A stretch of DNA of 47,887 bases from Methylocystis sp. (GTDB lineage Bacteria; Pseudomonadota; Alphaproteobacteria; Rhizobiales; Beijerinckiaceae): positions 1-47,887 of the forward strand of contig JACOWC010000056.1 of NCBI GenBank assembly GCA_016177005.1, given 5' to 3'. The position numbers were made by a program, and so were the translations under genes. The notes beneath the pieces are model-generated. The model searched no databases and was not told the origin of the DNA. It saw nothing but the letters and a program-made list of their open reading frames with translations. Below, piece by piece: positions 28,325 to 37,520 of this stretch (position 1 is its first letter; each line of letters begins with the position of its first letter).

Positions 28325-29776
28325 TCAATGCGCCGTGCAGACCATGCACGGATCGAAAGAGCGCACGATGTGCTGCACTGCAATATTCGACGCTCCGTCG
28401 CCTCCCACCTCGAGGCCTTCGAGCGCGAATTCAAGCGGTCCCGGCGTTCCGTTGGCGTCGCGCGGCGAAAAATTCCAGGTCGTCGGGGCGATGATCTGAT
28501 AGCGCAGGATTTGTCGGTCGCGAATGCTGGCCCAATGGCCCAGCGTCCCGCGCGCCGCCTCGACGAAGCCGACGACGGCGCCGTTCTGAAGCGGCGCATC
28601 ATGCGCGCAAAAACGGTCGTTCAACTGCAACGAACGCGTCCACGTTTCTGCTGCCTTGGTCAGGAGCGCGATCTCAAGCAGGCGCGCGACGATACGCGCG
28701 AGCACATTTGTCGCTCCGGCCCGCCGCAACAAATCCTTGATCAACGGATGGCCGGCGACGCCCTGGCGCGCCAGCGCGCCAACTTCGACCGGCCGGCCGT
28801 CCAATCGCGGCGCTTTTGCAAAGGAATACGCATCTTCTCGCCGCATGTCGGGAATGGTCTCAGCGTTCGCCGGATCGCTTGCCGTGTCGCGCATCCACGC
28901 ATGCGACACATCCTCGCGAATCGCGTCGAAGGGAAGCGCCCGCGCCTCGCCGTCGGCGACGTTGAAGAGACCGGCGGGAAAGAGATGCCCTTCAGGCCCG
29001 AGATAAGCGCCGCTCGACATCAACAGACCTGGGCCGCGGCCCATTTCTTCCAGCTTTAGATCGCGCGCGATTCGAAGCAGAGCGGCGAAATCTCCAGCGG
29101 CGCCCGCGCCTTCAACGAAGGCTTCGAGCGCCTCGCAGGACGCAAGTTCGATCACGGTCTCGATGGGCGCGGCGAACAGCGCCCTTTCGACAAAACCGCG
29201 AAACTCGGCAAGCAAAGCGATGAGCCGCATCTGGCCGCTAAGATCAATCGCCCGGGTTACGCCTCCAGGCCGAAAAGCCAAGCTGTGCGGCCATTTGCCG
29301 GCGATGAGCCCCATGGTCTCGAGGAGACGCGCGCGCGCCGGCAGCGCCTCGCGCAAACTCTCTCCCGACATCGCCTTGAACCGCCGCTCGATCGCAGGAT
29401 GCCAAGATCGCGCCGCATAAGAGGCGCGCGCGAAGTCCGGCATGAAGAAGACGTAGAAGTGAGTGAGATGATCGGCGATGTTTTCCGCCGCATGCGCGAT
29501 ATTCGTCGTCAGCAGGCCGTTTGGCGCCGCCTCCAGATTTTGCGCCGCGCGCAGCATGGCTGCGGCGGCCAATGATTGGGAGACGGAACAGATGCCGCAG
29601 ATGCGCGGCGCGATCGCCAATGCGTCCTCGGCCGGTCGCCCGATCAGGAGTTGCTCAAAACCGCGATAGAGCGGGGCGGTGACGCGCGCCTGACGCACGA
29701 TTCCGCTCTCAACGTCGAGCGTAACTTCCAGATCGCCTTCGACGCGATTGAACGGGCCGATGACGATGCGGTTCAT
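28325..29776 (-). CDS. hupV: Regulatory (H2-sensing) hydrogenase large subunit HupV/HoxC
   Basis: 483 residues. Soluble H2 sensor subunit. It has the CxxC pairs RICGICSVSQS and SFDPCMVCTAH. Three sensor traits are visible: the protein stops right after the final His, so no HupD processing; Gln replaces His in the first motif; and the gas-channel residues are Ile62 and Phe110 (CGIC; HFYVFF). These are the bulky residues known from Ralstonia HoxC to restrict oxygen, and the numbering is identical. ATG 29776 overlaps the hupU stop. A longer frame upstream overlaps hupU and is not used. Confidence 0.95.
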   Translation of the reverse strand: MNRIVIGPFNRVEGDLEVTLDVESGIVRQARVTAPLYRGFEQLLIGRPAEDALAIAPRICGICSVSQSLAAAAMLRAAQNLEAAPNGLLTTNIAHAAENIADHLTHFYVFFMPDFARASYAARSWHPAIERRFKAMSGESLREALPARARLLETMGLIAGKWPHSLAFRPGGVTRAIDLSGQMRLIALLAEFRGFVERALFAAPIETVIELASCEALEAFVEGAGAAGDFAALLRIARDLKLEEMGRGPGLLMSSGAYLGPEGHLFPAGLFNVADGEARALPFDAIREDVSHAWMRDTASDPANAETIPDMRREDAYSFAKAPRLDGRPVEVGALARQGVAGHPLIKDLLRRAGATNVLARIVARLLEIALLTKAAETWTRSLQLNDRFCAHDAPLQNGAVVGFVEAARGTLGHWASIRDRQILRYQIIAPTTWNFSPRDANGTPGPLEFALEGLEVGGDGASNIAVQHIVRSFDPCMVCTAH

Positions 29777-30777
29777 CGTTGCTTTTCTGCGGTCGGCGGC
29801 GCCTCGACGCGATCGGAGCGTGAATTTTTGCGAACCCGCTTCGGCGTCGCGGATTTCGACAAGGCCGCCAAAGCGACGAACCACGCCTTCGGCATGTCGA
29901 GCGGCAATCCGACCGGTATGCCGCCGACCTTCGGCGTCTGGTGATACCCGCGCATATTTTCGAACCCGGGCGAGGTGCAGGCGATGCAGGTCGATCCAAC
30001 TTGCGTGCAGGAGCCGCCGCCATTCCATGGCCGCTGGTTGCAATCGCCAACCGCTTGGGTCGCCTTGCATCCAAGATGCTCCATGAGACAGCCGCGCTCT
30101 GAAAAATGCTCGGCGCTCGCTTTGAACTCGTAGAATTCGTTGCGACTGCAACCGTGATGCGCCAGATGGTCGGCGAAGAGACGCGGTCTGCCGAACCTGT
30201 CCAAATCCGCTTGCGTGAAACGACCGAGCGACAACGCCAGCAGCGTCTCCATGATCCAGCCGGGATGCGGCGCACAGCCCGATACATTGATGACCGGCAG
30301 GCCCGCGCGCGAAAGATAATCGGCGCCGAGCGCTCCGCCGGGCTCGCTTGCGTGGAACTGCACGCCGCTGGCGTCGGTCGGATTGGGCGCGCCGGCCGGA
30401 ACGCCGCCGAAAGCGGCGCAGCTCCCGATGGCGACGCAATAATCGGCCAGCGGCGCCAGCGCCCTGACCCATTCCAGCATGCTTCGCCCGGTTCCGCTGA
30501 GCCTGTTGAACAGGCCAGATCCGTCCGGACCGTGCAACACCGATCCTTCAATGCATAGCGCGTCGAGCTTCAGCTCTCCGCGCTCGACTCGTCCCATGAT
30601 GGTTCGAGCTTCCTCGCCGGTTTCCTCGCTCACGCTCGGGTGCCAGAGCAACTCGACGCCGAAATTGCGCAGTTCTTCGAACCAGCCGGACGCGCCGCTT
30701 TCGAGAACCGACATTGTGCAGCCCCCGCAACCGCCAGCCTGTAGCCAGAGCACCGTGAACGGACTGCTGCGCTTCAT
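29773..30777 (-). CDS. hupU: Regulatory (H2-sensing) hydrogenase small subunit HupU/HoxB
   Basis: 334 residues, partner of HupV. No Tat signal: the protein begins MKRSSPFTVLWLQAGGCGGC, going straight into the proximal-cluster motif, with the ordinary CGGCT rather than CTCC. Further cluster ligands: GSCAAFGG, SGCAPHPGW, HHGCSRNEFYE, HLGCKATQAVGDC, CIACTSPGFE. The C-terminus is a basic, charged tail (SKSATPKRVRKNSRSDR) instead of a membrane helix. It is the kind of tail through which the sensor is thought to contact HupT. First gene of the locus; I found no sigma-54 site in the 237 bases upstream. Confidence 0.95.
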   Translation of the reverse strand: MKRSSPFTVLWLQAGGCGGCTMSVLESGASGWFEELRNFGVELLWHPSVSEETGEEARTIMGRVERGELKLDALCIEGSVLHGPDGSGLFNRLSGTGRSMLEWVRALAPLADYCVAIGSCAAFGGVPAGAPNPTDASGVQFHASEPGGALGADYLSRAGLPVINVSGCAPHPGWIMETLLALSLGRFTQADLDRFGRPRLFADHLAHHGCSRNEFYEFKASAEHFSERGCLMEHLGCKATQAVGDCNQRPWNGGGSCTQVGSTCIACTSPGFENMRGYHQTPKVGGIPVGLPLDMPKAWFVALAALSKSATPKRVRKNSRSDRVEAPPTAEKQR

Positions 30778-31957: not shown

Positions 31958-33328
31958 TTAGACAGGCTCCCAGGCCTGTTTGGATGCCAGCTTTTCCGCC
32001 TGAGCGCCGGCGCGCAGCCGTGCCGGGCGATTCTCCAAACCGCTCCAATAGGCCTCGAATTCCGCGCGCCTGTCGATCACGCCAAAGCGCAGGCCAAATC
32101 CGATCATGGACCCGACATAAATGTCAGCGGCGGTGAAGGTGTCGCCGGCGATATAGCGGCGTCCCGCCACCGCCTTGGCGAGCGCATCCATCACAGCGGC
32201 GTAGGAGCCGTAACCGAAACGGCCCTGCATCTCCGGCGTCGCCGGATCCCAGCCGACGGCGTGATTGTTCATTGCCGGCTCCACGCATCCGGCCGCAAAA
32301 AACAGCCAACGATAATAGTCGCCGCGCGCGGGCGGCTCGGGCGCGAGCCCGGCCTGCGGAAATGCGTCCGCGAGGTAGGCGCAGATGGCGGCGGTCTCCG
32401 TCACCACTTGATCGCCGTGCCTGATCGCCGGGACCTTGCCCATCGGATTGACGGCCAGATACTCCGGAGCCTTGATCGTCGTGCCGTAATCCTTCACTTC
32501 GATCGAATAAGGCGCGCCGATTTCCTCCAGCATCCAATGCGCGATCATGCCGCGCGATTGCGGATTGGTATAAAGAACGAGTTCCTTCGTCATCACAGCT
32601 CCCTTGGCGTCTGCAGAGGCCGAGCGACCATAGGCGGGGACGCTGTCAGCTTCTGTCAGCATGTTTTGCCGCCAGTCCTTGACCAGCGCCCGGCGACGGC
32701 GCGGCGGGCGAGCGTCCAAGATCAGCGCGGCTTCAATCCTGTCGGCGCGAAAATGTCGGAAAGCGGCCCGTAGTTCGCACCAGGCCGCCAGTACGCGCGT
32801 CGATTCAAAAAAGCCCAGCGCCACTGGCCATATGACCCGCTCGGTTCGCGCGCCCTTATCGTCGCGATAGCTGACGGCAAGCTTGCGCTCTTCGCGCAGC
32901 GCCTGCCGCAGCAGCCTCAAGTCGATATGTTGCGGCCGCTCCCAACCCGGGCCGACGATGAGCGCGTCGTCTTCCAGTCGTTCTTCGAGGTTTTTCGGCA
33001 GGACAGCCGAAATTTTCGCCACGGCATTGCGCGCGGCGTCGGAAAGCGCATTATCGGTGCGCCGCGCCACCCACCTTGCGCCAAGCGCCAGCGCCTCGAT
33101 CTCTTCCTCCGAAAACATCAGCGGCGGCAACAGAAAGCCGGGGCGCAGGACATAGCCGACGCCGGGCTCGCCATCGATTTCCGCGCCCAATGACTGCAAG
33201 GCGGCGATGTCGCGATAGAGCGTGCGCAGGGAGACGCCAGCCTCACGGGCGAGTTCCGCCCCGCTCGCCGGCCGGCGGCGGCGGCGAAGCATTTGCAAGA
33301 TGTCAAACAATCGATGCGTGCGCGACAT
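31958..33328 (-). CDS. YafY-type WYL-domain regulator fused to a glutathione S-transferase
   Basis: A single frame of about 456 residues. Residues 1-225: DeoR/YafY-type helix-turn-helix (SGAELAREAGVSLRTLYRDI) and WYL domain (LREERKLAVSYRDDKGARTE). Residues about 246-456: a complete GST with the thioredoxin fold (LVLYTNPQSRGMIAHWMLEE, NPMGKVPAIRHGD, VVTETAAICAYLADAF) and a helical domain (IAGDTFTAADIYVGSM). The linker SVPAYGRSASADAKGAV carries no stop. An internal ATG at 32593 has AAGGGAGC seven bases upstream, so free GST could also be made. Start ATG 33328; no clear ribosome site, but two 15-bp direct repeats lie right upstream. In most genomes these two are separate proteins. Confidence 0.85.
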   Translation of the reverse strand: MSRTHRLFDILQMLRRRRRPASGAELAREAGVSLRTLYRDIAALQSLGAEIDGEPGVGYVLRPGFLLPPLMFSEEEIEALALGARWVARRTDNALSDAARNAVAKISAVLPKNLEERLEDDALIVGPGWERPQHIDLRLLRQALREERKLAVSYRDDKGARTERVIWPVALGFFESTRVLAAWCELRAAFRHFRADRIEAALILDARPPRRRRALVKDWRQNMLTEADSVPAYGRSASADAKGAVMTKELVLYTNPQSRGMIAHWMLEEIGAPYSIEVKDYGTTIKAPEYLAVNPMGKVPAIRHGDQVVTETAAICAYLADAFPQAGLAPEPPARGDYYRWLFFAAGCVEPAMNNHAVGWDPATPEMQGRFGYGSYAAVMDALAKAVAGRRYIAGDTFTAADIYVGSMIGFGLRFGVIDRRAEFEAYWSGLENRPARLRAGAQAEKLASKQAWEPV

Positions 33329-33336
33329 GGCGGCAG

Positions 33337-33366
33337 GATATCGCAAACTCCGATATCGCAAACTCC
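33337..33366. promoter_or_regulatory. Two perfect tandem 15-bp direct repeats upstream of the WYL-GST gene
   Basis: GATATCGCAAACTCC occurs twice back to back, starting nine bases upstream of ATG 33328. The position fits an operator, perhaps for self-regulation by the encoded YafY-type protein. A simple tandem duplication is the alternative. Confidence 0.5.
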
Positions 33367-33468: not shown

Positions 33469-34251
33469 TCAGCGGCCCATGGTTGTCAGCACCGCTTCGA
33501 TCGGCGCTGAATCGATCGTCAATCCGCCATTGAAGGGATTGTCGAGCGCGGCGATGAGAAACACCACCGAGCCCATAAACAGCGCCATCGCGCCGCTGAG
33601 GATCAGATGCACATGCGGCTCCATGTCGAAGATGCACAATAGGGCGATCAACAGAAAGCCGCCGAGACAGACCACCCACCAGAGCGCGCTCGGAATGCCG
33701 TCCCGCCCGGCGGCATTGAGATAGCGACGATGCTCGACGAGCGCGTTCAATCGAGTGAACGTCTCCGTTTGGACCATCTCCTGGCTTCTGAGCCTGGGCT
33801 GAAAATTCATGACTTGCTCGAATAGCGCCGTCAATGCGCGCGAAGATGAATGGGGGTCCTGAGGAATATCTGGCGGCGGATGCACGGCGTCGATCGCCTC
33901 GCGCGCATAGTCGCGCAGCTTTTCCTGAAGCTCGCTCCGCGTCGGCTGCGGAAAGCCTTCGAAATCCTGGTGAAGCGCGGCGATCGCCAACGCTTCCTTG
34001 GAGACGACGTCGCCGACGGCGGAAAAATCCTGATAGGCCTCCACCGCCAGCAATCCGAGCAGAATGCCGTATAGCGTGCAGAACGCCGTCAACGTCAGTC
34101 CGATCATCTCATTGGCGTTGCGGCGCCCATGTATCCACCTATGCGCCTCCCGCCGACAAAGAAACACGCCCAGCCAGGTCACGCCCAGAGAGCCCAGGCA
34201 GAACAGAGCGGCCATTTGCGCGACGGACAGATGCTTGAATAATCCGGGCAC
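33469..34251 (-). CDS. DUF4239 membrane protein
   Basis: About 260 residues. Four hydrophobic spans: MAALFCLGSLGVTWLGVFLC, LTLTAFCTLYGILLGLLAVE, WWVVCLGGFLLIALLCIFDM and ALFMGSVVFLIAALDNPF. The soluble middle has helical EALAIAALHQDFEGFPQPTR. This layout matches DUF4239, bestrophin-like proteins of unknown function. Start set to GTG 34251, five bases after AAGGAGG; an ATG 24 bases upstream is inside that ribosome site's leader. Stands alone on the minus strand. Confidence 0.82.
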   Translation of the reverse strand: MPGLFKHLSVAQMAALFCLGSLGVTWLGVFLCRREAHRWIHGRRNANEMIGLTLTAFCTLYGILLGLLAVEAYQDFSAVGDVVSKEALAIAALHQDFEGFPQPTRSELQEKLRDYAREAIDAVHPPPDIPQDPHSSSRALTALFEQVMNFQPRLRSQEMVQTETFTRLNALVEHRRYLNAAGRDGIPSALWWVVCLGGFLLIALLCIFDMEPHVHLILSGAMALFMGSVVFLIAALDNPFNGGLTIDSAPIEAVLTTMGR

Positions 34252-34307
34252 AGGCGCCTCCTTTTTCGGCGGCATTAGCAGGCGGCCGCGTCAAATTGTC
34301 AAAATCC

Positions 34308-36743: not shown

Positions 36744-37520
36744 ATGGCGTTGGAAGTCGCGCAGTTCATCTGCCTCAACGATAATTTCGGCCTGCTCGTC
36801 CATGAGCCGGAGCTCGGCGCGACCGCAAGCGTCGACGCGCCCGACGGCGAAGCGATCGCCAATGAGGCCGAGCGGCGCGGCTGGCCGCTGACGCATCTGC
36901 TGCTCACGCATCATCACGCCGATCACGTGCAGGGAACACAGACGCTCAAAACGCGCTTTCCGCACATGAAGGTCATCGGCGCCGCCAAGGATGCGCATCG
37001 ACTGCCGCCGCTCGATCGCGCGGTTTCAGAAGGCGACGTCGTCGAAATCGGCGAAGCGCGCGCGCGCGTCATCGAAACGCCCGGCCATACGCTCGGACAT
37101 ATCGCCTATTACTTCGAGGACGATGAAATCGTGTTTGTCGGCGACACGCTGTTCTCGCTCGGCTGCGGACGCGTTTTTGAGGGCACCATGGACATGATGC
37201 ATCTCACCCTCGAAGCGCTCGCCAATTTGCCCGGGGAAACGCTGGTCTATTGCGGCCACGAATATACCCAGGCGAACGCCAAATTCGCGCTCACCGTCGA
37301 CCCCGAAAATTCGGTGCTGCGCGCGCGGGCGCAAACCGTCGCCGATCTGCGCAAGGACGGAAAATTTACCCTGCCGACGACGATCACGCTCGAGAACGCC
37401 ACAAATCCGTTTCTGCGGGTCGAGGATCCGAGCGTAGCGGCCGCGATGGGCATGCGGGGCGCGGACCCTTCCGCGGTTTTCGCGGCGATGCGCGAGCGCA
37501 AGAACAAATTCGCCGCATGA
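36744..37520 (+). CDS. gloB: Hydroxyacylglutathione hydrolase (glyoxalase II)
   Basis: 258 residues. Splits S-lactoylglutathione to D-lactate and glutathione, the second step of methylglyoxal removal. Metallo-beta-lactamase fold with LTHHHADHVQGT (metal ligands), TPGHTLGHI, FVGDTLFSLGCGRVFEGT and YCGHEYTQAN. Ends with the C-terminal substrate domain (FLRVEDPSVAAAMG). AAGGAG lies eleven bases before the ATG. Its stop overlaps the start of the cupin gene (ATGA). Confidence 0.94.
   Translation: MALEVAQFICLNDNFGLLVHEPELGATASVDAPDGEAIANEAERRGWPLTHLLLTHHHADHVQGTQTLKTRFPHMKVIGAAKDAHRLPPLDRAVSEGDVVEIGEARARVIETPGHTLGHIAYYFEDDEIVFVGDTLFSLGCGRVFEGTMDMMHLTLEALANLPGETLVYCGHEYTQANAKFALTVDPENSVLRARAQTVADLRKDGKFTLPTTITLENATNPFLRVEDPSVAAAMGMRGADPSAVFAAMRERKNKFAA

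Follow-up and report, generated by a model that had tools for sequence, protein, structure and literature searches.

A stretch of Methylocystis sp. DNA of 47,887 nucleotides (the window) carries a YafY-type HTH-WYL transcription regulator that runs without a stop codon into a complete glutathione S-transferase (GST), and the linker joining the two holds a predicted operator and -10 box. We consider it fairly probable that this gene is a self-contained detoxification module, regulator plus target, with a promoter inside its own open reading frame (ORF). One frame would thus double as protein linker and promoter.

The fused gene and its domains

The earlier note, made from the letters of the window, had proposed that a YafY/WYL regulator continues without a stop into a full GST. 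Translation of the frame and Pfam searches confirmed this on the minus strand, with the regulator in residues 1-222 and the whole GST in residues 246-456.

31958..33328, minus strand: fused ORF, YafY-type HTH-WYL regulator plus GST (ATG at 33328, TAA at 31958, 456 aa)
33152..33313, minus strand: HTH_11 DNA-binding domain, residues 6-59 (Pfam 8.9e-18)
32726..32920, minus strand: WYL domain, residues 137-201 (Pfam 1.8e-13)
32594..32662, minus strand: linker, codons 223-245, holding the predicted promoter; low model confidence, likely disordered
32599..32605, minus strand: AAGGGAG, ribosome site of the internal start, 5 bases upstream of the ATG
31958..32593, minus strand: GST part with its own ATG (codon 246), 211 aa, the predicted free product (predicted transcript start about 32620, from the position of the -10 box)

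An N-terminal HTH_11 followed by WYL, both above the Pfam cut-offs, makes up the YafY-type architecture. In the alignment of homologues, R35 and R39 of HTH_11, whose recognition helix reads SLRTLYRDI, and R191 and R194 of the WYL domain were invariant. GST_N matched residues 250-320 (Pfam E about 1e-12) and GST_C_2 residues 376-410 (7.5e-5; 23.2 bits, slightly below the Pfam cut-off of 24.9), and PDB matches covered the entire domain, as in a full-length cytosolic GST. It contains NPMGKVPA and TETAAI, which we take to be glutathione-site motifs. For the whole fusion, the structure model reached only fair quality (mean pLDDT 65.5, pTM 0.48).

Distribution and probable origin of the fusion

The fusion is real and common to relatives: we searched for it and found it unbroken in congeners and in other genera. 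It was present without a stop in 9 of 36 Methylocystis-like congeners (81-87% identity), and across Methylocystis-like genomes, Methylosinus, Microvirga, Amphiplicatus and Halomonadaceae the unbroken fusion showed 58-87% identity. Public genomes with the fusion include those of Methylocystis suflitae, M. silviterrae, Methylosinus sporium, Amphiplicatus and six Halomonadaceae, as well as a complete plasmid of Microvirga ossetica, where it is annotated merely as "HTH domain-containing protein". One further alphaproteobacterial family has the fusion (G075), and in another the contig end cuts it (G628). The window itself comes from a draft genome (193 contigs, 2.06 Mb, 65% complete) whose nearest named relatives are Methylocystis, a source in which a joined frame might be an artefact of assembly or sequencing. 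Since isolates, few-contig genomes and the complete Microvirga plasmid carry the same unbroken fusion, we rejected a frameshift or assembly error and regard its probability as negligible. The junction at 32594-32660, which the earlier note had marked for confirmation, is open in 23 fused loci, with neither stop nor frameshift, excluding a sequencing error there. The internal ATG at 32593 and its ribosome site are likewise present as described, and every fused relative read retains an ATG at the junction.

A tree built from the regulator part placed all 20 fused genes together in one clade (support 99/99). This clade also took in a long-branched Bradyrhizobium gene without a GST and, with weak support for its position, Telmatospirillum. 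The Telmatospirillum siberiense locus (L036:5670-5740) keeps the frame and length of the fusion, and a single TGA in the linker splits the parts. In Acinetobacter the regulator is more distant, and the GST that follows it is a gene of its own. Separate genes in relatives, which the earlier note had named as grounds against a fusion, therefore do exist in these two cases, but about 20 other fused genes are open. The clade, the Telmatospirillum TGA and the range of hosts suggest that the fusion originated once, was split at least once afterwards and spread between Alpha- and Gammaproteobacteria. Its source would have been a regulator, promoter and GST lying side by side, the two frames becoming joined through the promoter. 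In a single-contig Methylocystis genome (G022), we also observed a second, partial regulator match (C1:1866421-1866855, minus strand; 74% over residues 1-145) about 1.5 kb from the intact fusion.

A predicted operator and -10 box in the linker

Codons 224-235 read CTGACAGaagCTGACAG-N10-TATGGT and comprise two elements.

32643..32659, minus strand: predicted operator CTGACAG-AAG-CTGACAG, an imperfect palindrome, within codons 224-229
32627..32632, minus strand: predicted -10 box TATGGT, at offset +27 from the operator start, including the Tyr233 codon

The combined motif occurs once in the window (0.00 expected), and the linker operator is the sole exact site in the 2.06 Mb genome. Searching eight Methylocystis genomes with the strict motif gave 12 matches, all at the fusion locus, and none with a reversed-pattern control. 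The matches occupy two positions, the linker and, in several genomes, also 39 bases before the regulator start. A larger regulon in Methylocystis was rejected, as the strict site lies nowhere else in the eight genomes. Some fused genes have a weaker -10 box (TATGCA, TATGGA or CATTGT), and in front of the linker -10 the -35 is poor at every usable spacing. We also considered the linker as a conserved peptide motif (LTEADS..AY); this reading fails because the same DNA occurs outside coding sequence, after the stops of stand-alone homologues.

We propose that a short GST transcript starts from a promoter in the linker, with the ribosome site and ATG 32593 downstream of the predicted start. The suggestion in the earlier note that one frame yields two products gains strength, because a predicted promoter accompanies the ribosome site in the linker. 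The products of the gene are probably the fused regulator-enzyme and, in addition, free enzyme.

Two features lie in front of the regulator.

33335..33340, minus strand: -10 box TATCCT of the regulator's own predicted promoter, 6 bases before the ATG
33337..33366, strand not given: 15-bp tandem duplication at the position of the relatives' upstream operator

Eight other distinct fused loci (L003-L008, L037, L112) combine the same -10 geometry with an intact operator at -39/-40. Because this -10 box lies six bases before the ATG, the mRNA of the full fusion is predicted to be leaderless; we also predict it to be self-regulated. The window's own gene has lost the upstream operator and has the 15-bp duplication instead, and its internal operator is perfect.

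The same motif at stand-alone regulators

The consensus is a palindrome, CTGACAG-NNN-CTG(A/T)CAG, then exactly 10 bases, then TAnnnT. The operator was present in 81 of 107 regulator loci. In an alignment of these 81 sites the core was nearly invariant and the 10-base spacer unconserved, and the T, A and T of the -10 box were kept in 96%, 99% and 90%, respectively. Among regulators with 55% identity or more, 104 of 131 (about 80%) were followed by operator plus -10 box, compared to 2 of 15 with less than 55% and none of 866 control windows. At stand-alone regulators the motif sits just past the regulator gene, in front of its neighbor; the ribosome site and start of the next gene come after it, typically 57-73 bases from the operator start. 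The genes behind the motif encoded VOC/glyoxalase proteins (47 of 62), EVE proteins (5) and GSTs (2), with single MAPEG, GFA, GyrI-like and SRPBCC-type genes among the 62. Their products are small and act on reactive chemicals by binding or destroying them, in agreement with the operons that PMC7641849 describes for EVE domains. No operator was found at about 14 loci of stand-alone GST homologues. We therefore rejected the GST as the bringer of the operator, which belongs to the regulator.

At eight loci (L012, L047, L050, L090, L101, L119, L146 and L150), a stand-alone YafY gene carries, 35-50 nt upstream of its own ATG, a palindrome of related sequence (such as CTGCCAAATTTTGGCA), with no -10 box at the usual offset. 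These palindromes are perhaps an autorepression site.

Selection on the linker and on the joined frame

Both the regulator and the GST parts are under strong purifying selection (dN/dS 0.11-0.24), and the linker codons beyond the promoter are nearly unconstrained as peptide (dN/dS 0.7-0.9). Within Methylocystis, dS in the operator/-10 codons was 0.32, compared to 0.74 and 0.61 in the two domains, a depression that indicates constraint on the DNA. Of 23 fused loci, 21 have 66 nt between operator and ATG and the others 63 or 69 nt, compared to 50-145 nt, in all frames, in separate loci. At its third base, the -10 box has C or T in all 22 fused loci compared, which avoids an in-frame TAA or TAG; among 84 separate loci, 54 carry A or G there, a stop in the fused frame. 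By a substitution count, 7.1 nonsense changes would be expected past the -10 box, and none was seen (P about 0.001). This estimate is weakened by a control with GC-matched separate loci, just 3 of 40 of which have an in-frame stop in the short leader, so that an open leader alone is weak evidence; the third-base test still points to selection. Because separate leaders rarely have stops and the fused loci share descent, we grade selection for the joined frame as likely, not proven. The fused GST could be a tethered enzyme, a sensor or a by-product.

Proposed mechanism and comparison with known systems

The fusion, its conservation, the operator, the -10 spacing, the exclusivity to this locus and the single clade were computed; DNA binding, activation instead of repression, two products and detoxification we infer. 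According to our model, the HTH-WYL part would bind CTGACAG-NNN-CTG(A/T)CAG palindromes as a dimer. The downstream half-site of the linker operator would lie at about -26. From the TG(A/T)C core to the -10 box the distance is 16 bp, which matches PafBC promoters. A signal, which in known WYL activators is nucleic acid, would activate the WYL domain, and the activated regulator would recruit RNA polymerase to the linker promoter, which has no good -35. The short transcript would then give free GST from ATG 32593, removing electrophiles or xenobiotics. Many relatives have the site twice; the additional copy would drive the regulator gene, and the full fusion would be made from the leaderless mRNA. 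By analogy, the spacing suggests activation by sigma adaptation. It seems to us slightly better than an even chance that a promoter in the regulator's coding sequence gives the fusion plus an induced surplus of enzyme, and that the PafBC-like -26/-10 arrangement is general for this proteobacterial YafY subfamily.

Among solved structures, the WYL part is closest to PafBC and CapW. PafBC-dependent promoters read tTGTCRgtg-8nt-TannnT, with 16 nt from TGTC to TA (PMC5656591). The RecA-NDp promoter of PafBC (PMC5656591, PMC11804915) resembles the proposed linker promoter in its WYL activator, putative in the case of the linker, and in a TGTC near -26, 16 nt from TAnnnT; the fused Methylocystis genes have the TGTC-like element at this spacing but read TGAC. 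PafBC occupies the space between sigma domain 4 and the promoter, replacing -35 recognition. Unlike the regulator described here, it is a heterodimer with a non-palindromic site, a many-gene DNA-damage regulon and WCX domains. The -26 region is the site of action of both PafBC and SiwR, and PafBC, DriD and SiwR all bind single-stranded DNA. PafBC and DriD have a C-terminal WCX domain, whereas the fused regulator is short and gave no Pfam match to WCX; stand-alone homologues stop about 30 residues past WYL, leaving no room for one.

A GST fold coupled to transcription is known from SspA. SspA works on RNA polymerase and does not itself bind DNA (PMC12340889); it has neither an HTH nor a WYL part. 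SiwR of Mycobacterium smegmatis, a WYL regulator of an adjacent gene pair, requires the -26 region to activate its neighbor genes (PMC10693628). Its site, like the one proposed here, is an imperfect palindrome (19 bp, between -35 and -10) in which the -26 region is needed, but SiwR is actinobacterial, with divergent gene order, a C-terminal WCX region and separate dinB-like targets. R35/R39 and R191/R194 are spaced like R38/R42 and R204/R207, which SiwR requires, a match by spacing only. DriD of Caulobacter is also a WYL homodimer with a pseudo-palindrome at a fixed distance from the -10 box; however, its site (ATACGAC-N7-GTCGTAT) overlaps the -35 and differs in sequence and spacing (PMC12340889). 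The YafY-family HTH-WYL regulators beside VOC/EVE genes (PMC7641849) share the regulator part and the order of regulator followed by a detoxification or small-molecule gene. The YafY text of that paper mentions no GST, fusion or operator, whereas here the GST target is fused through the promoter. Each component is of a known kind; our searches of open-access text turned up neither a WYL-GST fusion nor this operator, nor a YafY promoter lying within the frame.

Alternative explanations

The earlier note had cast the GST as a sensor. The GST domain would bind glutathione conjugates or xenobiotics and signal to the attached regulator, making the full fusion the main functional product. The near-constant distance from operator to ATG, the invariable C or T in the -10 box and the absence of nonsense changes past it would all follow from such a role, but the linker peptide beyond the promoter is nearly free to vary, GC-matched separate leaders seldom contain stops, Telmatospirillum lives with a linker stop, and the regulator family also works beside unrelated target genes. 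The linker is constrained more as DNA than as peptide, and elsewhere the same promoter precedes a separate neighbor gene, for which reasons the GST looks first of all like a regulated target. We consider a sensor unlikely. The low constraint on the linker peptide, the general rarity of stops in such leaders and the Telmatospirillum split would also fit accidental read-through, in which a compact, stop-free promoter joined the frames as a neutral side effect and only free GST and regulator activity matter. Frame and length are nevertheless kept across wide divergence, with C or T always at the third base of the -10 box, and this explanation appears doubtful to us.

A serious rival to activation is repression. 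As an autorepressor, the regulator would block both promoters until released by a ligand, and the GST would be derepressed. BrxR and CapW, WYL regulators of phage-defense systems, are repressors. The operators overlap the promoter core, which could equally mean repression, they are also found upstream of the regulator, and the upstream palindromes of several stand-alone relatives, with no -10 box at the same offset, have a repressor-like layout. Activation is favored because the -35 is poor at all usable spacings and the half-site, at about -26 and at a PafBC-like distance from the -10 box, is placed as in WYL activator promoters; repression is accordingly rather improbable in our estimation.

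Implications and gene neighborhood

YafY-family regulators are widespread and their targets mostly unknown; the operator/-10 motif predicts both their sites of action and their target genes, and it connects them with the WYL activators that have been studied in mycobacteria. If our model of activation at the linker is true, WYL activator promoters extend to a family of detoxification regulators. The fusion also offers a small system for asking whether an enzyme can sense for its own regulator.

Several genes in the window surround the fusion. The small and large subunit genes of a [NiFe] hydrogenase (28325-30777, minus strand) adjoin the locus, and a gene for a bestrophin-like membrane protein (33469-34275, minus strand) lies upstream on the same strand. 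A few kilobases away is a gene for hydroxyacylglutathione hydrolase (glyoxalase II; 36744-37520, plus strand), also a glutathione-linked detoxification enzyme.
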